This document shows, one piece after another, positions 39,363 through 59,855 of a stretch of 64,000 nt of DNA (the stretch's first letter is position 1; the number at the start of each line of letters is the position of its first letter). A program made the position numbers and the translations under genes. Below the pieces are notes generated by a model. The model had not been told where the DNA came from, did no database searches, and saw only the letters and a list, made by a program, of their open reading frames with translations. The stretch lies in contig NZ_PYYB01000001.1 of assembly GCF_003044185.1 (NCBI RefSeq), positions 806,001 to 870,000 of the forward strand. Direction: 5' to 3'. Source of the DNA: Paraconexibacter algicola. Its GTDB lineage: Bacteria; Actinomycetota; Thermoleophilia; Solirubrobacterales; Solirubrobacteraceae.

Positions 39363-42300
39363 TCAGCTGCTGCAGACCGGCAGCAGCGCGAAGTTCAGCC
39401 CGAGGACGTTCAGCACGTTGATGTTGCCCAGACCCGTCGAGATCAGCAGCTCGCGCCGTCCGCCGCAGGCCAACGAGCCCGTGGAGGTCGAGGCGGGCGC
39501 CGTCACGATCGAGCCGTCGCCGCGCGCCCACACGAAGCGGGCCGAGGCGGTCGCCTTCGACGCCTGCGTGCCGACGTTGAACGAGTTCACCAGCGGCGGG
39601 TAGGAGATCCCGTCCATCACGAACGGCTGCGCCACCCCGCCCGCGTTGCGCGAGTCGAAGAACATGTAGAGCAGCGGCAGGTTCTGCCCGAACGAGCTGA
39701 TCGTCGTGTTCGCCGGCCCGGTCCCGAGGTCCAGGCTGAACGTCTTGAACGTCAGGCCGCCCGCGTTCGTGTCCGGGTCACCGAACTTGATCTCCGGGTC
39801 GGTCGGCGTGAGCTTCAGCTTCGCGCGGAAGGTCGTGAAGTCCGTCGCCGCCGTGCCGGTGCCGAGCGACCCCTGGTCGTCGAAGTTCAGCGACGCCGAG
39901 GCCTTGTACGGCCGGCCGTTGCCGTTGGCGTTGTAGCGGTTGCCGATCTTGTCCTGCGGCGGGCCGCTGCACGGGTTGAAGATGTTGCCGCCCGAGCACC
40001 CGCGCGGCCCCGAGGTCGTGTTCCCCGGGACGTTGGGGTTCGGCCGGCGGCACCCGTTGCCCGGGTCGAGGCACGCGGTGAGCTTCGGCGCGACGTTGTC
40101 GAACGCGAGCTTCGCCGACGGGATCGACCCGAGGTTGGTCGCGAACAGCTCCAGGCGCGCGAGCTTCTGCGAGTTGTCGAAGTTGATCGACGACGGCACC
40201 GACGGGTCGTTGGAGAGGTTCACGAACAGCTTCGTCGAGGCCCCCGGGCGGTTGATCAGGCCGTCCACGTCCGACACGGTGGTCCCCGCGGGGATCGCCG
40301 CGTCGATCGTGATCGGCCGCGCCTTCGCCGGGTCCTGCTGCAGCTGCAGCGCGACCGGCTCGAGGTTGACGTCGATGACCTTCGCCCCCGTGAGCCGCAG
40401 GGCGATCCCGAAGTTCGCCGGATCGGTCGCGAACTTCAGCAGGTCGTTGCTGGCCGTGGCCTGCGTGACCGTGCCGGGGATCGGCGACGCCGGGTCGATG
40501 AACTGCGGCAGCGTGCCGGAGCCCCCGTGGGCGGCCAGGCGGATCTGCCCGATCGGGTCCGGCTGCCCGGCCCCGTTGAGCCCGGCGATCGTCGCGAGCG
40601 AGCCCTCCTCGGGGATCGTGATCGTCGTGCTCAGCGGCAGGTCGTGCAGCGCCGCCTGGACCACGGACGCCCCGGGCAGCAGCTCCAGGCCGCTGGTGTC
40701 GAGCGTCACGAGGCCGATGCGGGCGTTGCCGAGGACCTGCAGCCGCGTGCCGTTCGGCCCGTTGGCGCCCGGGTTGTCCCCGAGCTCGAGCGTCAGGTCC
40801 GACGGGAGGCTGTCGACGAGCGCCTTGACACTGACCGGCGCGCCGCCCTCCTCGAGCGGCACCTCGGCGTCGATGTCGAGCTTCTTGCCGCCGTTGGTGA
40901 GGCCGCGCAGCTTGACCGGGTCGAGGTCCAGCGTGATCGACCGGACGCCGGACAGCCGCGTGCGGATGTCGAAGCCGGAGGTCTGGCTGAACTTCAGGAG
41001 GTCGTTGAGCGTGCCCGCGCCGCCCGCGGCCGCGTCGTAGTCGTCGGCCGGCAGGTTCGCCGTGCCGCTGCCCGCGGCGAGCCGCAGCTGGCCGATCGGG
41101 GTGAGCTGGCCCTGCGCGTCCCGCGCGGTGACCCGGGCGAGGTCGCCCTGGTCGGGCAGCGTCACGTCGACGTCGACCGGCAGGTTCTCGATCTCCGCCT
41201 CGACGGCGTCGGCGCCCTCCAGCAGCTCGAGGCCGCGGGTGGAGAGCTTGACGAGGTCGATCGGCTCGCTGCCCTTGAGCATGAGCTTCGACCCGTTGAC
41301 GGTGTCGCCCTCGAGGTTGTCCCCGAGGCCGAGCTCGACGACGGCGGGCAGCCGGTCGATCGTGCCGGCGACCTCGAGGTCACGGCGCGGCGTGCCGTCC
41401 TCCGCGGTCTGCGGGAGCTTGGCGTCGACCGTGAACACGCGGCCGGCCTGCATCTCGGTCTTCAGCACGAGCGGCGCGAGGTTGACCTCGAGGCGCTTGA
41501 GCTGGAAGACGCGCAGGGCGAGCGCGAGCTGCTCCTGGGTCGGGTCCTCGGCCTTCTCCTCGTCGGTGAGGGTGGCATCGATGATCGCCCCGGCGGTGCC
41601 CGCGGGCAGCACCGGGTAGGAGCGGTTGCGGCTGCGCGCACGGATGTTCACGGAGCCGATCGGCTGGTCGGCCGTCAGCTTGATGCCCGAGAGGTCGGTC
41701 GCCTCCGGGTCCGCCTCGTTGGCCGTGCCGAGACCGAGCGTGAACGCCTGCGGGACGTCCCGCAGGTCGACCTCGATGCCGGTGGCACCGAGGAAGAGCG
41801 GCTCGCGCCCGTCGATGTCGGCGAAGATCTGCCCGATCGGCGCGGAGCCGGTGTACCGGACCTCCCCGGCCTGCAGGTCGAGGTCGAGCGTCAGCTCCTG
41901 CGGCAGGTCGAGGATCTTCGCCTGCGCCGCGAACGCCTCGGTCGAGACGTCGGCGACGAACGGGCCGCCGGCGGTCTTGGACTTCAGGCTGATCGCCTCG
42001 TCGAACTGCACGCTGAGCTCGCGGAGCTCGAGCACGCGGATGCCGACGCGGAACGGCTCGCCCGGCTTGGAGCGCAGGACCGCGCCCTGGGCCGGCTGGC
42101 CCTCCGAGGTCGGGTAGGTGAACTGGCCGGCCTCGTCGGAGGCGGCGAGCTCGATCTTGCCGACCGGGGTGCCGTCGGCGTCCGGGTCGTTCGGGTCGAT
42201 CGCCTTGACGGTCGCGCGCCCGTTGGCCTGCGAGAACGACAGGGCCACGTCGGACGGCAGGCGCTCGATGTCGCCCTGGATGTAGCGGCCGCCGCCGAGG

Positions 42301-45300
42301 ATCGGCTCGTCGGACTCGGCGGACAGCGTCAGGCGCTGGATGCCGACCGGGTCGCCGTTCTCGTCCCGGCCCTTGAACGTCAGGGCGTTCGGGTTGTCGC
42401 TGGAGCCGTCGAGGTCGACGGCGAGCTCCGCCGAGGCGGGCAGGTCGGCGATGTCGGCGACCGCGGTGAGCAGGCCGTCGACGTCGACGTCGGCGACGAA
42501 GCGGCTGCCGGCGGTGCGGTCGATCTGCAGGCCGATGCCGCTGCCGGTGTCGAGGCCGACCGCGAGCTTCTTCAGCCCGGTGACCTTGACCGCGATGCCG
42601 TAGTCGTCGGCGGTGTCGTGGTAGCGGACGCCCTGCTCGGTGAGCGGGAACGGCGCGTCCACGTCGTCGGCGACGTGCAGCTCGAGGTCGCCGAGCGCCT
42701 GGCCGTCCGGGATCGCGACCGTGGCGCCGTTGCCGGCGGAGTCGAGGCCGACGGTGAGGTCGGACGGGACGTCGGTGAGGCGACCCTGGAGCTTGCGCGC
42801 CCGGTCGAAGATCGGCTGGTCGGAGCGGGCCGAGAAGGAGATCTCGTCCACGCCGACGGGCTCGTCGTCGTCGTTGCGGCCCGCGTAGGTGAACCGCGCG
42901 TTCTGCAGGTCGAACCCGAGCGAGGTGCGGGCGGGCAGCTTGTCGATGCGCGCCGTGGCCGTCAGGTCGTCGGTGGTGGCGTCGATCGAGAACGGCGTGC
43001 TGCGCAGCCGCGCGTCGATGTCGACGTCCTGGCCGTCGAGCTGCAGCCCGATGCGGCGGAGGTCGAGGAGGCGGGCGGCGAGCACGAACGGCTGGCCGGC
43101 CTTGTCCTGGTAGATCGCGCCCTGCTCGCCGTCGGCGATCGCCGGGGCGGCCTGGTCCTCGGGGAGGTCGGTCGCGAGGATCGACACCTCCTCGATCGGG
43201 GAGTCCGCGTCGACCGTCGCCGACGGGGCGGCGGGGTCGATCGTGATCGAGGCCCGCTTGGCGAGCCTGCGGATCGTGCCCTCGACGCGGGTGGCGCGCC
43301 CGAGCAGCGTGCCGGTGCGGGCGATCGCCTTGAGGGTGATCTCGTCGATGACGTCGCTGTTGTCGAACTGCAGCGCGCCGCCGTCGAGGTCGAGCGTGGC
43401 GTCGAGCGCGGACGGCAGGTCGGCGATGCGGGCGTCCGCGTCGAGGTCCGCGGTGCGGGCCTTGATCGTGAACGGGCCGCTCGCGGTGCGGGTCACGAGC
43501 GTGACGGTGTCGTCGAGGAGCGCCACGACCTTCTTCAGGCCGCGGACGCGGGCGCCGACCGCGTAGCGGACGGGCGTGTCCAGCAGGACGGCGCCCTGGT
43601 CGTCGTCGGCCGGGAGGGCGTCGGCGAGGCCGGCGACCGTGTCGGCGGCTGCGACCTCGACGAGGCCGATCGGCTCGTTGGCCTCGACGCGGGCGCCGTT
43701 GCCGGCCTGCGCGAGGTCGACGACGGTCAGCGGCGCGAGGCCCTCGACGCGGGCGCGGACCGCGGTCGCGCGGCCGAGCAGCGGCCGGGTGGAGACCGCG
43801 TCGAGCAGGACGCGGTCGATGCCCTCGCCGTGGCCGTCGACGGTGAGCTTGCCGGCGGGCAGGTCGAGGGTCGCGTCGAGCTCCTTCGGGAGGTTCTCGA
43901 TGCGGCCGGTGGCGTTCAGCTCGTCGGTGCGGAAGCGGACCGAGAACGGGCCGCCCTCCGTCTTGGTGCCGACGCGCACGACGTCCCCGGCGACGCGGGC
44001 CGCGACCTTCTCGAACTCGCGGATGCGGGCCGCGATCGTGAACTCGGTGGCGGTGTCGACGACCTTCGCGCCCTGCTCGTCCCCGGCCGGGAGGTCGGCG
44101 GCGCGGTCGGGCGGGGTCGCGGAGACGATGACCTCGGCGGAGCCGATCGGCTCGTTGGCCTCGAGGCGGGCGCCCTCGCCGTCCTGCGCGATGTCGAGCA
44201 CGAGGTCGGCGGGGATCCGCTTGACGGTGGCGTCGAGGTACTTCGCCCGGCCGAGGAGGGCCTCGCGGGCCGCGAGGGCGACGTCGAGGCGCTCGATCGT
44301 GGCGGGCGAGTCGTCGGCGTCGCGACCGACCACGGTGACCTTGCCGTTCGGCAGGTCGAGGGTCGTGTCGAGCTTCGCCGGCAGGTCGCGGACCTGGGCG
44401 GTGCCGGTGAGGTCGTCGGTGTCGACCGCGAGGTCGAACGGGCCGCCGCGCGTGTGCGTCCTCAGCCGCACGAGGTCCTGGCCGAGCGCGGCGCTGACGG
44501 ACTTCAGGCCGAGGATGCGGGCGCCGACGGCGAAGGTGCCGCCGGTGCGGTCGACCAGGGTCGCGCCCTGGCGGTCGTCGGCGGGCAGGTCGCCGCCGGA
44601 GCGGAAGTCGATCGCGCGGTTCGCCGCGACGAGCTCGATCGAGCCGATCGCGTTGGAGGCGTCGACGGACAGGTCGTCCCCGTCGGTGTCGAACCGCAGG
44701 TCCAGGGAGGCGGGGATGTCCTTGACGCGCCCCTGGATCCGGGTGGCGCGGGCGATGAGCGCGCTGCCGGGCCGCGGGTCCGCGGCCGTCAGGTCGAGCT
44801 GCCCGATGCCGCGGGGGCTGCCGTCGGCGGCCTTGCCCTCGAAGGTCAGGCGGCCACCGTCGAGGTCGAACCCGAGGTCGACGTCGGCGGGCAGGTCGCG
44901 GATGTCGCCCGCGACGTCCAGCGCGTCGGTGCGCAGGGCGACCGAGAACGGGCCGCCCGCCGTGACGGCGGAGAGGCGGGGCGCCCCGGTGGTGTCGAAG
45001 GCGACCTTGCGGATCCCGTCGACGCGGGCGGAGACGAGGTACTCGCCGCCGGGCAGGTCGCGGTAGATGGCGCCCTGGCCGCCGCCGGCCGGGAGGGTCT
45101 CGGGGCCGTTGGAGGCGATGATCTCGGCGCGGCCGAGCGCGCGGTCGAGCGTGATGCCGCCCTTGCCGTTCGCGGTCTCGATGCGCGCGTCGAGGCTCGA
45201 CGGGAGGTCGACGAGCGTGCCCTTGAGCTTCGTGGCGCGGCCGAAGAACGGGGTCGTGGAGACGGCGTCGAGCTCGATCCGGCCGATCCCGGTGCCGTGG

Positions 45301-46772
45301 CCGTCGTAGGTGAGGCGGCCGTTGTCGAGGTCGAGGCTGGCGTCGAACCAGGCGGGCACGTTCTTGACGCGGGCGTCGATGCGCTGGCGGGTGTCGACGA
45401 TGCGGGCGAGCAGCGGCGTGGACGCGAGCTTGGCGGACACGGTCGGCGTGCCGCTCAGGCGGGCGGTCGCGGACTGCAGGCCGGGGATCTTCGCGCTGAC
45501 GGAGCGCAGCGTGCCGTCGTCGTCGCTGTAGACGTAGGCGGGCTCGGTGTCGGGGAGGAACTTCGGCTCGCCGTTGGCCTGGCCGAGCTTCGCGAGGCCG
45601 AGCGGGCCGCCGGTGGTGGCGACCTGGACGTCGTCGCCCGCGACCGTGGCGGTGAGCCCGGTCGGCACGTCGGCGAGGTTGAGCTTCGTCTTCTGGCGCA
45701 GGACGCCGTTCTCGGTGCGCTGCAGGGTCGCGTCGATGGTCGCGACGCGCGCCGAGGCCGAGTAGGTGGCGCGGGTGCCGCCGGCGGTGCTGGCGGCGAT
45801 GCTGAGCGTGCCGGGGAGGTTCGTGATCTGCGCGTCGAACGCGTCGGTGGTGGTGCCGTCGACGACGCGGCCGGCCACGGTGGTCGGGCCGGGGCGGTTG
45901 GTCGTCAGGGTCGCGGCGAGGTCGGAGCCGGCGCGCGCGACGATGGTGGCGGTGTCGGGCGAGGCGCCGTAGTCGATCGAGACCTCGGTGGGGTTGACGC
46001 GGGCGCTGGAGGTGCCGTCGAAGAGCCCGGCGATGAGCTTGATGCGGTTGCGCCGCAGCGTCTGGCTGAGGGTGACGCGGAAGTCGCCGCCCGGGCGGGT
46101 GATCGTGTCGAGCGGGGTCTCCAGCGTGAAGCCGCCGGGCGCCTGGTCGGCGGTGGCGTCGTAGCCGAAGGAGAGGTTGCGGCGGCCGAGGATGCGGGTG
46201 GAGGTGTCGGAGACGACGACCTCGACGGACACCGGGAGGTTCGCGGCCGACTTGAGCAGGTCGCGGTTGACCTTGAGGCCGATCGTGTTCAGGGAGGTGA
46301 GGGTGAGCGTCGCGTTGAGGTCGGCGAGCGCCTCGTCGTCGACGTTCAGGGCGGCGGGGACGCCGATCAGCGCGGGGGTCGAGCGGGTGAGGATCGTGCC
46401 GTTGGGGCGCTTGTAGCGCGTGACGACCTCGTAGTGCAGCAGCGAGGAGGCGCAGGTCAGGGAGGTGAGCCCGGAGCCGATGGCGCCGAGGCCGTTGCCG
46501 AGCCCGGGGACGGTCGCGAGCTGCTGGCTGAGCGAGCCGACGGTCGGGCAGACGACGCCGTTGACGAGGGTCGTGGTGGCCCCGAGGGTCTGGGAGACCA
46601 GGCCGGAGGTGGCGGTCGTGGTCTGGTTGACGGTCTGGTTCGTCGTGGTGACGACCGGACCGAGCAGCCCGCCGAGCAGGCCGGCGTTGGCCGCGGGCGC
46701 CGCGGCGAGCGGCGCGGCGACGGCGACGGATGCGACCAGCGCGGCGCGCACGCCGCGAGTGGACCCGAGCAT
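39363..46772 (-). CDS. giant secreted repeat protein (about ten 170-residue repeats)
   Basis: 2469 residues, the longest gene in the window. The ATG at 46772 follows GAAGAGG and opens a signal peptide (VRAALVASVAVAAPLAAAPAANA). Then a Thr/Asn/Gln stretch (TTTNQTVNQTTTATSG), a unique region to about 465, about ten repeats (about 467-2170), and a distinct C-terminal domain with several Cys (ACLDPGNGCRRPNPN, GCSGGNIFNPC). Each repeat contains LPxxLDxxLDLxxGxLTxxG, then RATxxxGxVxxLPxxL, then GSxExxAxx and LPAxDxQGAxxxD, then xVxARxxGLxxV and GPFxVxxxTDxLxAxARI. The chain is almost all beta and acidic. A long beta-groove or filament is plausible. No known family recognised; it has its own regulated promoter and terminator. 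Confidence 0.85.
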   Translation of the reverse strand: MLGSTRGVRAALVASVAVAAPLAAAPAANAGLLGGLLGPVVTTTNQTVNQTTTATSGLVSQTLGATTTLVNGVVCPTVGSLSQQLATVPGLGNGLGAIGSGLTSLTCASSLLHYEVVTRYKRPNGTILTRSTPALIGVPAALNVDDEALADLNATLTLTSLNTIGLKVNRDLLKSAANLPVSVEVVVSDTSTRILGRRNLSFGYDATADQAPGGFTLETPLDTITRPGGDFRVTLSQTLRRNRIKLIAGLFDGTSSARVNPTEVSIDYGASPDTATIVARAGSDLAATLTTNRPGPTTVAGRVVDGTTTDAFDAQITNLPGTLSIAASTAGGTRATYSASARVATIDATLQRTENGVLRQKTKLNLADVPTGLTATVAGDDVQVATTGGPLGLAKLGQANGEPKFLPDTEPAYVYSDDDGTLRSVSAKIPGLQSATARLSGTPTVSAKLASTPLLARIVDTRQRIDARVKNVPAWFDASLDLDNGRLTYDGHGTGIGRIELDAVSTTPFFGRATKLKGTLVDLPSSLDARIETANGKGGITLDRALGRAEIIASNGPETLPAGGGQGAIYRDLPGGEYLVSARVDGIRKVAFDTTGAPRLSAVTAGGPFSVALRTDALDVAGDIRDLPADVDLGFDLDGGRLTFEGKAADGSPRGIGQLDLTAADPRPGSALIARATRIQGRVKDIPASLDLRFDTDGDDLSVDASNAIGSIELVAANRAIDFRSGGDLPADDRQGATLVDRTGGTFAVGARILGLKSVSAALGQDLVRLRTHTRGGPFDLAVDTDDLTGTAQVRDLPAKLDTTLDLPNGKVTVVGRDADDSPATIERLDVALAAREALLGRAKYLDATVKRIPADLVLDIAQDGEGARLEANEPIGSAEVIVSATPPDRAADLPAGDEQGAKVVDTATEFTIAARIREFEKVAARVAGDVVRVGTKTEGGPFSVRFRTDELNATGRIENLPKELDATLDLPAGKLTVDGHGEGIDRVLLDAVSTRPLLGRATAVRARVEGLAPLTVVDLAQAGNGARVEANEPIGLVEVAAADTVAGLADALPADDDQGAVLLDTPVRYAVGARVRGLKKVVALLDDTVTLVTRTASGPFTIKARTADLDADARIADLPSALDATLDLDGGALQFDNSDVIDEITLKAIARTGTLLGRATRVEGTIRRLAKRASITIDPAAPSATVDADSPIEEVSILATDLPEDQAAPAIADGEQGAIYQDKAGQPFVLAARLLDLRRIGLQLDGQDVDIDARLRSTPFSIDATTDDLTATARIDKLPARTSLGFDLQNARFTYAGRNDDDEPVGVDEISFSARSDQPIFDRARKLQGRLTDVPSDLTVGLDSAGNGATVAIPDGQALGDLELHVADDVDAPFPLTEQGVRYHDTADDYGIAVKVTGLKKLAVGLDTGSGIGLQIDRTAGSRFVADVDVDGLLTAVADIADLPASAELAVDLDGSSDNPNALTFKGRDENGDPVGIQRLTLSAESDEPILGGGRYIQGDIERLPSDVALSFSQANGRATVKAIDPNDPDADGTPVGKIELAASDEAGQFTYPTSEGQPAQGAVLRSKPGEPFRVGIRVLELRELSVQFDEAISLKSKTAGGPFVADVSTEAFAAQAKILDLPQELTLDLDLQAGEVRYTGSAPIGQIFADIDGREPLFLGATGIEVDLRDVPQAFTLGLGTANEADPEATDLSGIKLTADQPIGSVNIRARSRNRSYPVLPAGTAGAIIDATLTDEEKAEDPTQEQLALALRVFQLKRLEVNLAPLVLKTEMQAGRVFTVDAKLPQTAEDGTPRRDLEVAGTIDRLPAVVELGLGDNLEGDTVNGSKLMLKGSEPIDLVKLSTRGLELLEGADAVEAEIENLPVDVDVTLPDQGDLARVTARDAQGQLTPIGQLRLAAGSGTANLPADDYDAAAGGAGTLNDLLKFSQTSGFDIRTRLSGVRSITLDLDPVKLRGLTNGGKKLDIDAEVPLEEGGAPVSVKALVDSLPSDLTLELGDNPGANGPNGTRLQVLGNARIGLVTLDTSGLELLPGASVVQAALHDLPLSTTITIPEEGSLATIAGLNGAGQPDPIGQIRLAAHGGSGTLPQFIDPASPIPGTVTQATASNDLLKFATDPANFGIALRLTGAKVIDVNLEPVALQLQQDPAKARPITIDAAIPAGTTVSDVDGLINRPGASTKLFVNLSNDPSVPSSINFDNSQKLARLELFATNLGSIPSAKLAFDNVAPKLTACLDPGNGCRRPNPNVPGNTTSGPRGCSGGNIFNPCSGPPQDKIGNRYNANGNGRPYKASASLNFDDQGSLGTGTAATDFTTFRAKLKLTPTDPEIKFGDPDTNAGGLTFKTFSLDLGTGPANTTISSFGQNLPLLYMFFDSRNAGGVAQPFVMDGISYPPLVNSFNVGTQASKATASARFVWARGDGSIVTAPASTSTGSLACGGRRELLISTGLGNINVLNVLGLNFALLPVCSS
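40260..45370 (-). repeat. about ten degenerate in-frame repeats of about 500-540 bp
   Basis: Repeat starts are marked in the protein by NVPAWFD, RDLPADVD, RDLPAKLD, ENLPKELD, ADLPSALD, DKLPARTS, ADLPASAE, LDLPQELT, DRLPAVVE and DSLPSDLT. The copies are diverged in DNA but keep order and length, so the expansion is old; the last three are more divergent than the first seven. Confidence 0.8.
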
Positions 46773-48188: not shown

Positions 48189-50135
48189 TCAGGCGATCCG
48201 GACCTCGCGACGCCCGTCGAGCTCGACCTCGAGCAGCGCGCTGCCGTCGGCGGCGGCGATGAGCTCGTCCACGAGGCCACCGCGGACGGTGTACTGCCGG
48301 CCGGGCACGAGCTGCTCCAGCCGCAGCGTCGTGCGGACGGGTCCGGCACCGGGCCGCAGGACGAGGTCGAGCGCGTGGCCGTCGGTGACGGCGCGGGCGA
48401 CCTGCACCTCCGGGTAGGCGGCCTCGGCGAGGCGGGGACCGGTCGTCCAGGTCTCGGGCACGCCGTGGGCGATGAGGTCGCGCAGGCCGCTGCGCCGCCC
48501 GAACCGGGCCAGGTTCGCGTAGCAGTTGGCCAGCGGCGAGGCACCGTCGTAGCGGCGGGCGCCGTGGTGGTCGGCGGTGGGGGTGCCGGCGGCGAGCGCC
48601 GTCTCGGCGGCGCGGGCGACGTCCTCGTCGCCGAGCTCGCGCGCGGCCAGCGTGGTGGCGACGTGGCCGAAGGTCTCGGAGCCGAGCTTGTAGTTGCCGG
48701 GGTCCAGGCGGTCGGACACGGCGCGCGGCGTGTGCAGGACGCCGTCGCGCAGCGTCAGCGTGTTCTCGCGCAGCAGCCACCAGGTGCGGTGGGCGATCTC
48801 CGGGAGGGTCGGGTTGAGCCAGAACGAGGTGCCGAGCTGCAGCGCCGCTCCGGTCCAGAAGTTCCAGGACAGGCCGAGGTGCGCGGAGCGCACGCCGACC
48901 ATGCGGCCGTCCGGGCGCAGGAAGTCCGACTCGTAGGCGGCACGCAGGCGGGGCTCGGTGGCGGCGAAGTGGTCGGTGCCGTGCAGCCGGTCGTGGCTGA
49001 GCAGCGTGTTCATCCCGAAGGAGTTGCAGACCGGGTAGATCCAGTTCGGCTCGCAGGCGAAGAGCGCGTAGGGCGAGGCGTCGACGTTGCGGCGGATCTG
49101 GTCGGCGAGCCCGCCGAAGTCGTAGGCGTAGGCCTCGTCCTGCGACCAGCGGAAGGTCAGGGCGCCGGGCCGGCTGTAGCGGTCGTCGTTCAGCGTTGCG
49201 TAGGCCCCGACCATGATCCCGTGCCAGCCCGAGAGCATGATGTTCTCGTGGGTGTCGAGCGGGTCGCGGTTGAGCGACAGGTTCCCCCACGCGTTCTCGA
49301 TCGCCCAGTAGCCCCAGACGCGCCGGTCCAGCATCTTCTCGATCGCGTTGCGCTGGCCCTCGGCGAGGTAGCCGCCGAACGCGGGCGTGCGGGTCAGCTG
49401 GGCCATCGCGAGGCTGTTGGACAGCGCGGTGAGCTGGTACCGCAGCGCCGCCTCGCGGAACTGGTCGATGTGCGTGAAGCCGTCGAAGCGGTCGAGCGGC
49501 TGCAGGGCGAGGTCGAGGCTGTAGCGCAGGTGCGCGAGGTCGTCCTCGGAGTGCTCGACGACGGGCAGGTGCGCCTCGACGGTCGGCGGACCGGTGACGG
49601 TGAAGCGCTCGTGCGCGAGGCGATCGTTGGCCACGCGGCGGCGGGCGAGCTGGCGGCGGTGGCGGACCTCGACGACGAGCCGCGCGAGCAGGGCGAGCGC
49701 GGGGACGGCCAGCGCGACGGCGATCACGGCGCCGGTGCCCGGGGCGGCGTCGTCGGCGCGCCAGGCGGCGAGCCCGGCGGTGAGCGCGAGGACGATCGGG
49801 GGCAGCACGACGGGGCCGGCCGCCCACCAGATCGACAGCGACGAGACGAACGCGAGGGTCGCGACGAGTCCGAGGATCGGCGAGCCCTGGGCCCACAGCC
49901 CGCCGCCCGGGGCGACGATGCCGAGCCCGAGCGCCTGCAGCGCCGCGGACGCCCCGAGGACCGCGGGCAGGACGCCGAGGACCCAGACGGCGGCGTAGAC
50001 CGCGAGCGCCCGGCGCATCCGGGCGGCGCTGACGGGTCCGAGCGCGCCCGCCGGCGGGGGGATCAGCGCGGTGACGGCACGGTCCCCCGGCCGGTCCTGG
50101 GTCACGGGCTGGGGACGGACGAGCAGATCGGTCAT
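48189..50135 (-). CDS. membrane-anchored linalool dehydratase/isomerase-like enzyme
   Basis: 648 residues. Residues about 35-160 hold four hydrophobic helices. The remainder matches the alpha/alpha-barrel of linalool dehydratase/isomerase: RFDGFTHIDQFREAALRYQLTALSNSLA, HENIMLSGWHGIMVGAYATL (His 296/305), and the paired-cysteine motif ACEPNWIYPVCNSFGMN with Cys 361 and Cys 370 nine residues apart, as in the family's active site, followed by HDRLHGTDHFAA. That enzyme interconverts linalool, myrcene and geraniol in Castellaniella. A tertiary or allylic alcohol dehydratase activity is inferred here; the substrate is unknown. Its ATG overlaps the stop of the upstream small membrane protein (ATGA), and the operon lies under a TetR operator. 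Confidence 0.8.
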   Translation of the reverse strand: MTDLLVRPQPVTQDRPGDRAVTALIPPPAGALGPVSAARMRRALAVYAAVWVLGVLPAVLGASAALQALGLGIVAPGGGLWAQGSPILGLVATLAFVSSLSIWWAAGPVVLPPIVLALTAGLAAWRADDAAPGTGAVIAVALAVPALALLARLVVEVRHRRQLARRRVANDRLAHERFTVTGPPTVEAHLPVVEHSEDDLAHLRYSLDLALQPLDRFDGFTHIDQFREAALRYQLTALSNSLAMAQLTRTPAFGGYLAEGQRNAIEKMLDRRVWGYWAIENAWGNLSLNRDPLDTHENIMLSGWHGIMVGAYATLNDDRYSRPGALTFRWSQDEAYAYDFGGLADQIRRNVDASPYALFACEPNWIYPVCNSFGMNTLLSHDRLHGTDHFAATEPRLRAAYESDFLRPDGRMVGVRSAHLGLSWNFWTGAALQLGTSFWLNPTLPEIAHRTWWLLRENTLTLRDGVLHTPRAVSDRLDPGNYKLGSETFGHVATTLAARELGDEDVARAAETALAAGTPTADHHGARRYDGASPLANCYANLARFGRRSGLRDLIAHGVPETWTTGPRLAEAAYPEVQVARAVTDGHALDLVLRPGAGPVRTTLRLEQLVPGRQYTVRGGLVDELIAAADGSALLEVELDGRREVRIA

Positions 50136-50557
50136 GCGAGGGGCCTGAGGGTGTCGGGGACGGGGCGGCGGGACGCCGGGGCGTAGGCGTCGCGGACCAG
50201 GAGCGCGAGGCCCGCGACGACGAGCACGGGACCGGGCGCGTGCAGGAGCTGCGAGTGCGCGACGACGTGGAGCACGTGCGCGAGGAGCTCGGTGACGAGC
50301 AGCCAGGCGAACCCGGCGGCGATGAGCGCCGACGGCAGCGTCGGGCGGCGGAGTCGGCGCGCCCGACGGGGCCCGGCGGCCTCGGGTCGTGGCGCGACGG
50401 CCGGCCGCTCGGGCGCGACGACCGGGTCGGTGCCCGGCACCGGCCGGCGGGCGGGCGGCGCGAGCAGCTCGGCGGTGGCGAAGCGCCCGGGCATGAGCCG
50501 GGCGAGCGCGGGGCGCAGGGCGCCCAGGACGAGTGCGATGGCGATGCAGCAACCCAT
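50132..50557 (-). CDS. small membrane protein of the Ldi-like operon
   Basis: 141 residues with three hydrophobic segments: the N-terminus (MGCCIAIALVLGALRPAL), about 78-98 (LPSALIAAGFAWLLVTELLAHVLHVVA) and about 105-122 (APGPVLVVAGLALLVRDAY), with a Pro/Arg-rich cytoplasmic loop between. No family recognised. Its 3' end overlaps the enzyme gene by 4 bp, and its promoter lies within the TetR operator region, so it is probably a subunit or membrane partner of the Ldi-like enzyme. Confidence 0.7.
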   Translation of the reverse strand: MGCCIAIALVLGALRPALARLMPGRFATAELLAPPARRPVPGTDPVVAPERPAVAPRPEAAGPRRARRLRRPTLPSALIAAGFAWLLVTELLAHVLHVVAHSQLLHAPGPVLVVAGLALLVRDAYAPASRRPVPDTLRPLA

Positions 50558-50581
50558 GGTGGTGTGGCGCCGGACCAGAAG

Positions 50582-50599
50582 TGAGACGGGACCGTGTCA
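50582..50599. promoter_or_regulatory. second, imperfect TetR operator
   Basis: TGAGACG-N4-CGTGTCA, the same layout as the perfect operator 45 bp away with one mismatched pair. It lies just downstream of the predicted start of the minus-strand transcript. Confidence 0.5.
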
Positions 50600-50615
50600 G
50601 GTCCGGCGTGCCCGG

Positions 50616-50645
50616 ACGGTACGAGTTGACACGACGCCGTGTCAA
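50616..50645 (-). promoter_or_regulatory. promoter with perfect 20-bp TetR operator
   Basis: Minus strand -35 TTGACA (50640-50645), 18-bp spacer, -10 TACCGT (50616-50621). The perfect palindrome TTGACACG-N4-CGTGTCAA (50626-50645) covers the -35 and spacer. It lies between the divergent TetR gene and the Ldi-like operon and is the obvious repressor site. Confidence 0.75.
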
Positions 50646-56687: not shown

Positions 56688-57284
56688 GTGCCCGCCCCGC
56701 GCAATCCCGGCCGCACCCGCGTGCAGATCCTCGACGCCGCGCTCGGGGTGATCGCGGACCGGGGCCACGCGGGCACCACGATGCAGCGGGTCGCAGACAC
56801 GGCCGGCGTCGACAAGGCGCTCCTGCACTACTACTTCACGAGCAAGGCCGGATTGCTTGCGGCGGCGATCGTCCACCTCGGCGACCGGCTGCTCGCGGAC
56901 GTCGAGGCGGCGGTCGCGGGGCTCGACGATCCGGCGGAGGTCGTGGAGGTCGGGTTCGGGACCATGTGGGACCACGTGGTCGGCGACCCCCGGCTGCACG
57001 CCGCGTGGCTGAGCTTGTACGCCGCCGCCATCACCGATCCGGCGCTCGCCGAGCCGGTGAGGAAGGTGCGTGCTCGCTACCGCGAGATGGTGCGCGCGCG
57101 GCTCTCGGCGATGCTCGCCGCAGGGTGGCGCGCGTCGCTGCCGGACGCGGCGATGGTGACGCTCGTGCTCGCGTCGATCGACGGCTTCACGGTCGCCCTG
57201 CTCGAGGACGGCCGTACGCCCGCGCTGGACGAGGCGATCGCCGCGACCCAGGAGATGGTGCGCGCACTCTTCGGCCGCGCGTAG
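56688..57284 (+). CDS. TetR-family regulator of the MMPL transporter
   Basis: 198 residues from the GTG at 56688. Helix-turn-helix GRTRVQILDAALGVIADRGHAGTTMQRVADTAGVDKALLHYYFTSKAGLLAAAI (about 8-60), and a TetR_C-like effector domain (WDHVVGDPRLHAAWLSLYAAAITDPALAEPVRKVRARYREMV; ASIDGFTVALLEDG). It lies 57 bp ahead of the MMPL gene on the same strand, with perfect dyads before both genes (56656-56667 and 57307-57322). It probably represses both and responds to a lipid or drug handled by the transporter. Confidence 0.88.
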   Translation: MPAPRNPGRTRVQILDAALGVIADRGHAGTTMQRVADTAGVDKALLHYYFTSKAGLLAAAIVHLGDRLLADVEAAVAGLDDPAEVVEVGFGTMWDHVVGDPRLHAAWLSLYAAAITDPALAEPVRKVRARYREMVRARLSAMLAAGWRASLPDAAMVTLVLASIDGFTVALLEDGRTPALDEAIAATQEMVRALFGRA

Positions 57285-57285
57285 C

Positions 57286-57322
57286 TTGACACCCCGTCAG
57301 GTCTTCTTCACCATCTGGTGAA
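57286..57322 (+). promoter_or_regulatory. MMPL promoter and operator
   Basis: A consensus -35 TTGACA (57286-57291) is followed at 17 bp by a weak -10 (CACCAT). The perfect dyad TTCACCA-N2-TGGTGAA (57307-57322) covers the -10 region, a classic repressor position. Confidence 0.6.
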
Positions 57323-57341
57323 TGAGGAGGGGCACGGTCCT

Positions 57342-59855
57342 GTGGGCGCGCTGAGCGGGCTGGCGCTTCGCCGGCCGCGACTCGTGCTCGTCGTGTGGCT
57401 CGTGCTGACCGCCGCGCTCGCCTACAACGGGACGCAGCTCGAGTCGCACATCGCCCCGACGTCCATCGAGGTCCCGGGGACGCGCGCACAGGCCGCGCAG
57501 GATCTGGCCGACGCGGAGATCGGCAGCCGCGGGCAGGCGCCGGTCCTGCTCCAAGGGCCGGCGCCGGCCGTCCGCGCGCAGACCGCGCGGCTGGCGGCGC
57601 GACTGCGAGCGGATCCGCGCAACACGGTGCTGTCCGCCTTCGACAAGGGGGCGCCGCCGCAGCTGCGGCCGGCCGGCGGGGCGGTGGTCCTCGTGGAGCG
57701 CCCGACCGACGAGACGTTCGGCCCGGAGGTCGCCGACGCGGTGCAGCCCGTCGTCGACGCGGTTGTGCGGCCGCCGGTGCGCGCATCGGTGACCGGCTTC
57801 TCGGCCATCGGAAGCGCGATCTCCGACGCGTCCGTCGAGCAGGCCCACGAGGCGGAGAAGCTCGCAGTCCCGATCCTGCTGCTCGTCCTGCTGCTCGTGT
57901 TCCGCTCGCCGCTCGGCGCGGCGATCCCCGCGGTCCTCGGCGGGGCGACGGTCGCGAGCGCGCTCGGCGTCGCCGACCTCGTCGCCCGCACCCGCGACAT
58001 CACCGACGTCTGCACGCCCATCGCCTCGATGATGGGGCTCGCGCTCGGCGTCGACTACTCGCTGCTGATGGTCTCGCGGTTCCGCGAGGCGCGCCGCGAC
58101 GGCGCCAGCGTGGACGCGGCGGCGGCGACGGCGGCCCAGACCGCCGGCCGGACGGTCGTCGTCGCGGGCGCGACGATCCTGGTGACGATGGGCGTGGCGA
58201 TCCTGCTCGCCCCGGGCACGTTTCTGCAGTCGGCCGCGGTCGGCGCGGCCGCGGCGGCCGTCGTCGGCGTCCTCTCCGCGCTCACCGCCGTCCCGGCCGC
58301 CCTCGTCCTCGTCGGCGGGCACCTCGAGCGGCTGCGGTTCGGCCGGGCGCCGGCGGACGGCGGCGGCCTCTGGGGCGGGCTCGCCGCCGGGCTGCTCCGG
58401 CGACCGGTGCTCACCGCGCTGCCGGCGGTCGCCGTGCTCGGTGCGCTCGCCGTCCCAGGGGTCGGACTCGACGCCGGGCCGCCCGATGTCCGCGTCCTGC
58501 CGCCCGACGCACCCGTCCGCACCGACGCCGAGCGGGTCGTCCGCGCGCTGGGTCCCGGCTGGAGCGCGCCGCTCGAGGTGATCGCCGTCGACCGCCGCGC
58601 CACCCTCGACACCCCGGCCGGCCGGCGCGCGCTCGGCGTCCTCCGCGCCGGGCTCGTGGACGACCGCGACGTCGCGCTCGTCCTCGGCCCCCGGCCGGTC
58701 GGCCGCTCGACGCTGCTGACCGTCGTCCCCCGCTCGGGCCCGAACGATCCCGCCACCGCCGGCCTCTACGACCGCGTCCGCCGCGCCGCCGACCGGCTGC
58801 ACGCGAGCACGGGGGCGGACGCCCGCGTCGGCGGCGTCGCCGCGCAGTTGACCGACTACCGGCGCGCGTTCAACGCGCGCCTGCCGTGGCTGGTCGCCGC
58901 GCTGAGTGCCGTCGCCTTCGCCGCGCTCGTCCTCGTTCTCCGGGCGCTGCTGCTGCCGCTGGTCGCGGTCCTGCTGAACGCGCTCGTCGTGGCGGGGTCC
59001 TTCGGCGTGCTGTCGCTGCTCTCCACCGGGTCCGACCCGCTCCTCGGCGGCGCCGGCTTCGCCGACGCCCTCTCGCTCCTCGCACTGCTGTCACTCATCT
59101 TCGGGCTCTCGCTCGACTACCAGATCTTCATCCTCACGCGGCTGCGCGAGAACTGGCTGCGGTCGGGCGACGTCGGCACCGCGATCCGCTCGGCCATCGT
59201 CCGGACCGGGCCCGTCATCATGGGCGCGGCGGCGATCATGTCCGGCGTCTTCCTCGCCTTCATGACGCCCGACCTGCAGACGATCCGCCAGACAGGCGCC
59301 GGCCTGGTCGCCACCGTCCTGCTCGCCGCGTCCGCCGTCTGCCTCATCGCGCTCCCCGCCGCCCTGCGCCTCGCCGGCCCGGCCGCCTTCTGGATCCCCG
59401 CGTGGCTCGACCGGCTGCTCCCGGTGGTCGACCTCGAGGGGGATGGGGCGGCCGCCGAACCGGCCGCCGGCGTGTCCGCGCCCCGCCCCACCGCCACGGG
59501 TGCGGCGGACGCCGCCGGCCGCTGGTCCGGCCAGCTGCTCGTCGGTCCCGAGCACGAGGGCCCGCCCGGCCGCGCCGACGGCACCGTCCTCCCCTCGGCC
59601 CTGCACCACATCTTCCTTGAGCTCGCCGCCGACCACGGCCACGGGCAGGCGATCGACGTCGAGACCCGCATCACCCACCGCGCCCCGCTGCGCATCGACC
59701 GCGACGTCCACATCGAGGCCTGGTGCTCCCGCCACGACGGGCCCTGGCGCACGCTCGAGGCGACCGTCCGCGACGGGCCCATCACGATCGCGCATGCGGA
59801 GACCACCGTCTACGTCCTGAACGGCGGCGCCGGGCGCTCGAGCCGCGACGCCTGA
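57342..59855 (+). CDS. MMPL/RND-family transporter with C-terminal hotdog-like domain
   Basis: 837 residues from the GTG at 57342, which GAGGAGGGG precedes by 8 nt; an in-frame GTG at 57318 lies in the operator. About eleven or twelve membrane helices in two halves: TM1 (LVLVVWLVLTAALAYNG), a 140-residue outer loop, TM2-6 (LALGVDYSLLMVSRFREARRDG carries the family motif), a second loop, and TM7-12 (GLSLDYQIFILTRLRENWLRSGD). MMPL proteins export lipids or hydrophobic compounds using the proton gradient. Unusually, residues about 726-837 resemble a PaaI-type hotdog thioesterase (PSALHHIFLELAADHGHG, VETRITHRAPLRIDRDVHIEAWCSRHDG, ITIAHAETTVYVL), although the usual HGG motif reads ADGT. It is under a TetR operator. 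Confidence 0.85.
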   Translation: MGALSGLALRRPRLVLVVWLVLTAALAYNGTQLESHIAPTSIEVPGTRAQAAQDLADAEIGSRGQAPVLLQGPAPAVRAQTARLAARLRADPRNTVLSAFDKGAPPQLRPAGGAVVLVERPTDETFGPEVADAVQPVVDAVVRPPVRASVTGFSAIGSAISDASVEQAHEAEKLAVPILLLVLLLVFRSPLGAAIPAVLGGATVASALGVADLVARTRDITDVCTPIASMMGLALGVDYSLLMVSRFREARRDGASVDAAAATAAQTAGRTVVVAGATILVTMGVAILLAPGTFLQSAAVGAAAAAVVGVLSALTAVPAALVLVGGHLERLRFGRAPADGGGLWGGLAAGLLRRPVLTALPAVAVLGALAVPGVGLDAGPPDVRVLPPDAPVRTDAERVVRALGPGWSAPLEVIAVDRRATLDTPAGRRALGVLRAGLVDDRDVALVLGPRPVGRSTLLTVVPRSGPNDPATAGLYDRVRRAADRLHASTGADARVGGVAAQLTDYRRAFNARLPWLVAALSAVAFAALVLVLRALLLPLVAVLLNALVVAGSFGVLSLLSTGSDPLLGGAGFADALSLLALLSLIFGLSLDYQIFILTRLRENWLRSGDVGTAIRSAIVRTGPVIMGAAAIMSGVFLAFMTPDLQTIRQTGAGLVATVLLAASAVCLIALPAALRLAGPAAFWIPAWLDRLLPVVDLEGDGAAAEPAAGVSAPRPTATGAADAAGRWSGQLLVGPEHEGPPGRADGTVLPSALHHIFLELAADHGHGQAIDVETRITHRAPLRIDRDVHIEAWCSRHDGPWRTLEATVRDGPITIAHAETTVYVLNGGAGRSSRDA

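Follow-up and report, generated by a model that had tools for sequence, protein, structure and literature searches.

What a membrane-bound relative of linalool dehydratase/isomerase (Ldi) does in the actinobacterium Paraconexibacter algicola, and whether the small membrane protein encoded with it belongs to the same system, is the question raised by the minus strand at positions 48189–50645 of the window analysed here (a 64,000-nucleotide stretch of contig NZ_PYYB01000001.1). A first-pass annotation had given this interval to an enzyme with a coupled small membrane protein; it holds not one gene but two on the same strand, P0002 followed by P0001, which overlap by ATGA. P0001 (48189–50135, minus strand) encodes a membrane-anchored Ldi/Lis-type enzyme of 648 aa and begins with the ATG at 50135 that overlaps the upstream stop codon; homologues favour this start, and the one at 50645 is merely an extension of the open frame. 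P0002 (50132–50557, minus strand, ATG start) encodes a 141-aa membrane protein with three hydrophobic segments, which we assign to a family named here M-x-CC. Divergent to the pair lies P0003 (50689–51285, plus strand, GTG start), which encodes a TetR-family regulator (PF00440, E 2.6e-6; TetR_N domain scored at 27.5 bits, cut-off 24). P0001 is the sole gene in its genome that matches the Ldi family. The neighbours of the operon in the window are unrelated (a glyoxalase-like protein, a CAP domain, a predicted secreted protein with no Pfam match and myo-inositol-1-phosphate synthase), and no pathway gene adjoins it there. At 39363–46772 (minus strand) the window encodes a predicted secreted protein of ~2469 aa with apparently long degenerate repeats, and at 56688–59855 (plus strand) it holds another TetR gene with an MMPL-family transporter gene directly after it.

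P0001 is a genuine Ldi-family protein. Residues 232–533 match the Pfam family PF18566 (Ldi) over profile positions 1–316 of 318 (E 3.7e-83; 280 bits against a curated cut-off of 26.1 bits), and the Castellaniella Ldi entries in the PDB were found by phmmer (E 3.7e-10) and by profile search (E 5.5e-16). An AF2 model built from six aligned sequences, of moderate confidence (mean pLDDT 64), retrieved Ldi first from the PDB (Foldseek E 2.6e-9). A better fit to another alpha/alpha-barrel family, which the first-pass annotation had named as a refutation, did not emerge: the model aligns with Ldi at Z 25.8 (323 residues, rmsd 3.4), against 17.0 for the next family, and unsaturated glucuronyl hydrolases, cellobiose epimerases and GH76 could be set aside, all at Z ≤17. 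In this structural comparison, residues 190–563 align with Ldi at ~20% identity, and a C-terminal part (~566–648) that lies beyond the aligned stretch is beta-rich in the model. The N-terminal membrane region (residues ~43–155; 49671–50009, minus strand) contains four to five hydrophobic segments by hydropathy, in keeping with the helices that had been predicted for it, and the model places helices at residues 35–59, 64–74, 86–106, 111–127 and 134–174. Positive charge precedes the first and follows the last hydrophobic segment, so that both ends of the protein are probably cytoplasmic. Surveys found Ldi-family genes in ~2–8% of sampled actinobacterial genomes, and they occur in Alphaproteobacteria too.

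The membrane helices are indeed absent from soluble Ldi, as had been claimed, but the novelty that this implied does not stand, given a precedent published in 2016 (PMC4791888). Linalool isomerase (Lis) of Thauera linaloolentis is a 644-aa protein with four N-terminal transmembrane helices and a cytosolic domain; it was enriched and assayed, its activity was found in the inner membrane and required a reductant, and it has 20% overall identity to Ldi (PMC4791888). Judged from this published description of the 47Lol enzyme (ENO87364; EC 5.4.4.4, ~645 aa), Lis and P0001 are alike in their four N-terminal helices, cytosolic Ldi-like domain, lack of a signal peptide and distant similarity to Ldi. 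Because P0001, with 648 aa and positively charged flanks, has the Lis layout (four N-terminal helices and a cytosolic Ldi domain, ~644 aa), it adds one more enzyme to a kind already known, and an anchored Ldi-type enzyme is not new.

P0001 could be a plain Lis orthologue that converts linalool and geraniol for breakdown, in which case P0002 would be a chance neighbour. Its length, helix count and domain order equal those of Lis (PMC4791888), and Thauera lis is grouped with the atu genes, with a TetR repressor gene hit in linalool-growth mutants (PMC4847356). In the window, by contrast, the operon has no atu, geoA or geoB neighbours, and no AtuA match was found in the genome; the latter is a weak negative, as control genomes gave no match either, although it hints that the organism may lack the common pathway for degrading geraniol. 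The lis gene was moreover reported as isolated by >150 bp, with no small partner mentioned and with atu genes (PMC4791888), unlike P0001 with its coupled M-x-CC protein and divergent TetR gene. We therefore regard a plain Lis orthologue as unlikely.

The active site resembles that of Ldi only in part. In Ldi, the key residues are Asp38, Tyr44, His128, Cys170 and Cys179 (PMC12455561), and a Cys48–Cys101 disulfide caps the pocket (PMC6600392); we checked the residue numbering against 5HLR. The cysteine pair reported by the first-pass annotation, nine residues apart in a CEP context, is present: Cys361 and Cys370 of P0001 (CEPNWIYPVC; 49026–49055, minus strand) align with Cys170 and Cys179, and both columns are invariant in 39 of 39 aligned sequences, as is that of Ldi Met124. 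Compared with Castellaniella defragrans Ldi/LinD (PDB 5HLR, 5G1U, 5I3T), P0001 thus has in common the alpha/alpha barrel, CEP-x6-C, DRLHGTD and Met124, whereas Ldi/LinD is periplasmic and has neither the membrane anchor nor the C-terminal beta-rich part. The His motif had been described as kept. This holds for DRLHGTD but not for the substrate-contacting His128, which is replaced in P0001 by Trp304 (49224–49226, minus strand) and gives way to W, F or Y in each of the 38 non-Ldi sequences, His occurring in Ldi only; the motif therefore does not establish Ldi chemistry. P0001 also lacks the Ldi disulfide cysteines, as is expected of a cytosolic enzyme; its only cysteines are Cys361, Cys370 and Cys538. 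Towards the N terminus, where the register is uncertain, Asp208 (invariant in alignment A2) lies at most about one residue away from Ldi Asp38 in the structural register, and Tyr44 is seemingly replaced; the MAFFT placing of these two residues was not trusted, its N-terminal register being clearly wrong.

Terpene-alcohol chemistry is something that we infer for P0001 from family membership. The enzyme might instead act on another tertiary or allylic alcohol, in sterol- or acyl-CoA-linked metabolism, or might have lost Ldi chemistry. His128 is replaced throughout the clade, and two of the four paralogues in genome G256 adjoin genes for an AMP-ligase, a thiolase-like protein, an enoyl-CoA hydratase and SCP2. 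Against this stand the invariance of the Cys pair and Met124 in 39 sequences and the activity of Lis, which, like P0001, is only distantly related to Ldi, and we consider such a departure from terpene alcohols improbable. The G256 paralogues (loci L036, L037 and L038) are spread over two contigs, where acyl-CoA, thiolase-like, SCP2 and SDR genes surround them, and all four are without an M-x-CC protein.

The small membrane protein had been described as coupled to the enzyme, and the ATGA overlap and its recurrence in relatives both uphold this. P0002 begins MGCCIAIALVLG and runs from MGCC through a helix and an APPARRP motif to a C-terminal membrane extension with four His. Its vicinal cysteines, Cys3–Cys4 (50546–50551, minus strand), correspond in alignment A3 to a nearly invariant and an invariant position, respectively. 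Frames of the same pattern, in which M-x-CC (or M-CPAC) is followed by a hydrophobic helix, then by basic residues and in many cases by FAPPARRP, adjoin Ldi/Lis-type genes in 28 of 35 testable membrane-clade loci in Actinomycetota and Alphaproteobacteria, as counted from frames called from sequence in this analysis. Most lie directly upstream of the Ldi gene, and those at L031, L032, L047, L081, L082 and L093–L095 lie downstream; some of the proteins have 36–56 aa and others carry a C-terminal membrane extension, as in P0002. A strict motif scan found M-x-CC at 21 of 35 Ldi loci (a slightly different set, which includes soluble forms and omits plasmids) and at none of 287 control genes. With a profile of the CC proteins, matches at E < 1e-5 occurred in only 4 of 101 related genomes, all with a transmembrane-type Ldi. 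P0002 matches at E 6.9e-13, the window sequence itself being in the model; matches outside the training sequences came from G038 (E 3e-12, on another contig), Rhodococcus opacus, Aureimonas and Novosphingobium. Mapped onto a tree, presence of the CC protein is clustered, with 6 changes where shuffles gave 11.4. In L043, L045 and L040 the enzyme has lost its membrane domain and the CC protein is kept. Retention so far beyond chance speaks against an incidental bystander of a plain Lis orthologue.

The CC protein is not a universal partner. It is absent near seven testable membrane-clade loci (L036, with two copies, L037, L046, L073, L079 and L080), and the profile found no match elsewhere in G256, G1190 or G830, nor any in the soluble-Ldi-only genomes G118, G737 and G173 or in G002, which has a weak partial match. 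A known family is not apparent either: the short CC proteins have no match above cut-off in Pfam or NCBIfam, and a weak Tad hit of the L031 protein probably reflects its hydrophobic helix. In L081 and L082 the M-x-CC N terminus is fused to a CtaG domain (Caa3_CtaG, PF09678), and in R. opacus a CtaG gene sits between the Ldi gene and the microprotein; the C-terminal extensions in L030 and L043 are weakly similar, below the curated cut-off, to DUF2243 (PF10002), on which our literature search found no publication. P0002 itself matches neither DUF2243 nor Caa3_CtaG, even at E 10. A partnership of M-x-CC proteins with Ldi/Lis-type enzymes seems not to have been described before. We tentatively suggest that the two form a two-component system in which the enzyme would depend on the microprotein to be active. 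The microprotein might be a subunit for redox or metal handling, given that some lineages fuse it to the CtaG oxidase-assembly domain or encode the two side by side; this may be so, although we would not yet count on it.

Genes that accompany the enzyme in relatives fit isoprenoid substrates and fix none. A gene of the MPAB/Lcp oxygenase family (PF09995, which includes rubber oxygenase and MpaB') overlaps the Ldi gene in L039 and L078, overlaps or adjoins it in L042, and lies a few genes away in L044 and L072; the assignments in L039, L042 and L078 were made by similarity to the L044 protein, not by Pfam. This linkage points to isoprenoid chains. On Aureimonas sp. AU20 plasmid pAU20b (L094, 2340–5930), an operon encodes a winged-helix regulator, a UppS-type prenyltransferase whose gene overlaps that of the membrane Ldi-type enzyme, a DAGK-type kinase after the Ldi gene and an unannotated 38-aa MACC microprotein, and is perhaps a prenol-processing cassette. 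A Rhodococcus opacus DSM 44186 plasmid (L093, 1–9329) carries an Ldi-type gene, CtaG and an unannotated 36-aa MACC microprotein together with genes for an aldehyde dehydrogenase, a P450, an alcohol dehydrogenase and an MFS transporter, and looks like a terpene-alcohol catabolic island.

These neighbours raise the prospect that the substrates are longer isoprenoid alcohols (farnesol/nerolidol, geranylgeraniol, polyprenols or apocarotenoid fragments), handled in concert with prenyl-chain enzymes or an MPAB/rubber-oxygenase-type oxygenase, which would be a narrower form of the explanation that we favour below. Five relatives have an MPAB/Lcp gene next to the Ldi gene or close to it, which agrees with this idea, as do the prenyltransferase and kinase of pAU20b, and a membrane anchor would suit long chains. 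The operon in the window nevertheless has no such neighbours; the four PF09995 genes of this genome are distant from it and only weakly like the Ldi-linked type, and relatives show many other neighbours. For P0001 we therefore hold this narrower form to be rather doubtful.

How the operon is controlled can be read from the gap between the divergent genes, where two operator-like dyads of the same layout had been noted, one of them described as a perfect 20-bp palindrome on the −35 element. Two N4-spaced dyads are present, and the position over a plausible −35 stands, but the symmetry is 18 of 20. Dyad 1 (TTGACACG-ACGC-CGTGTCAA; 50626–50645) consists of two perfectly matched 8-bp arms around a 4-bp spacer and covers TTGACA, the probable −35 element of the operon. 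Dyad 2 (50581–50600), between the promoter and P0002, differs from it at 3 of 16 positions. Arms of 8 bp arose in the gap in 104 of 2000 shuffles, so that they are only mildly unusual alone. Dyad 1 is nevertheless unique in the genome (4.7 Mb) at ≤2 mismatches, and a genome-wide TetR regulon was rejected for want of any further site at that threshold. Homologues of P0003 with ~36–47% identity adjoin homologous Ldi genes. An N4-spaced element lies beside homologous TetR genes in the window and in L003, L044, L070, L072, L075 and L076 (0–1 of 500 shuffles as good) and in L042 (5 of 500), and is weak or not significant in L039, L071, L074 and L078; L003, L042 and L070 have the two-dyad layout of the window. 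The recurrence of such elements in other genera endorses the proposed link between the dyads and the regulator and, with the uniqueness of dyad 1, makes control of the operon by TetR through these putative operators well supported.

Together, these results lead us to consider it probable, on a reading that we favour without regarding it as settled, that this TetR-regulated operon encodes a membrane-anchored Lis/Ldi-type isomerase/dehydratase of a hydrophobic isoprenoid alcohol and a dedicated M-x-CC partner. The first-pass annotation had proposed a membrane terpene/alcohol dehydratase system; the Ldi homology, the hydrophobic N-terminal domain, the small partner and the TetR control agree with it, and the missing Ldi His128 and disulfide do not. 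Against the explanation that we favour also count the lack of an AtuA match and of an adjoining pathway gene, the ~20% identity to Ldi and the seven testable membrane-clade loci with no CC protein nearby.

In the working that we propose, the substrate, the direction of reaction, the role of the CC protein, the TetR ligand and the sign of control are inferred. P0001 would be anchored in the cytoplasmic membrane with its alpha/alpha barrel in the cytosol. The TetR protein would leave the two N4-spaced dyads, one of which covers the −35, in response to an alcohol carried in the membrane or to a hydrophobe that signals this alcohol. The CC protein would then be translated first, coupled to the enzyme through the ATGA overlap, and because of this coupling both proteins would be made at one place in the membrane. 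Cys361 and Cys370 would take the acid and base roles proposed for the Ldi pair, acting at the hydroxyl group and the allylic system, and the aromatic residue would stand in for His128. The CC protein could present or position the enzyme, handle a metal or keep the catalytic thiols reduced; Lis requires a reductant.

For the family, the M-x-CC partner occurs in two phyla and often goes unannotated through its shortness (the plasmid versions of R. opacus and Aureimonas have 36–38 aa). The MPAB/Lcp and UppS/DAGK-type kinase links suggest that substrates of the family extend to isoprenoids larger than linalool. If the two-component reading is true, earlier work on such enzymes would have missed half of the system, and, if that partner is required, the production of these terpene/diene biocatalysts would change.
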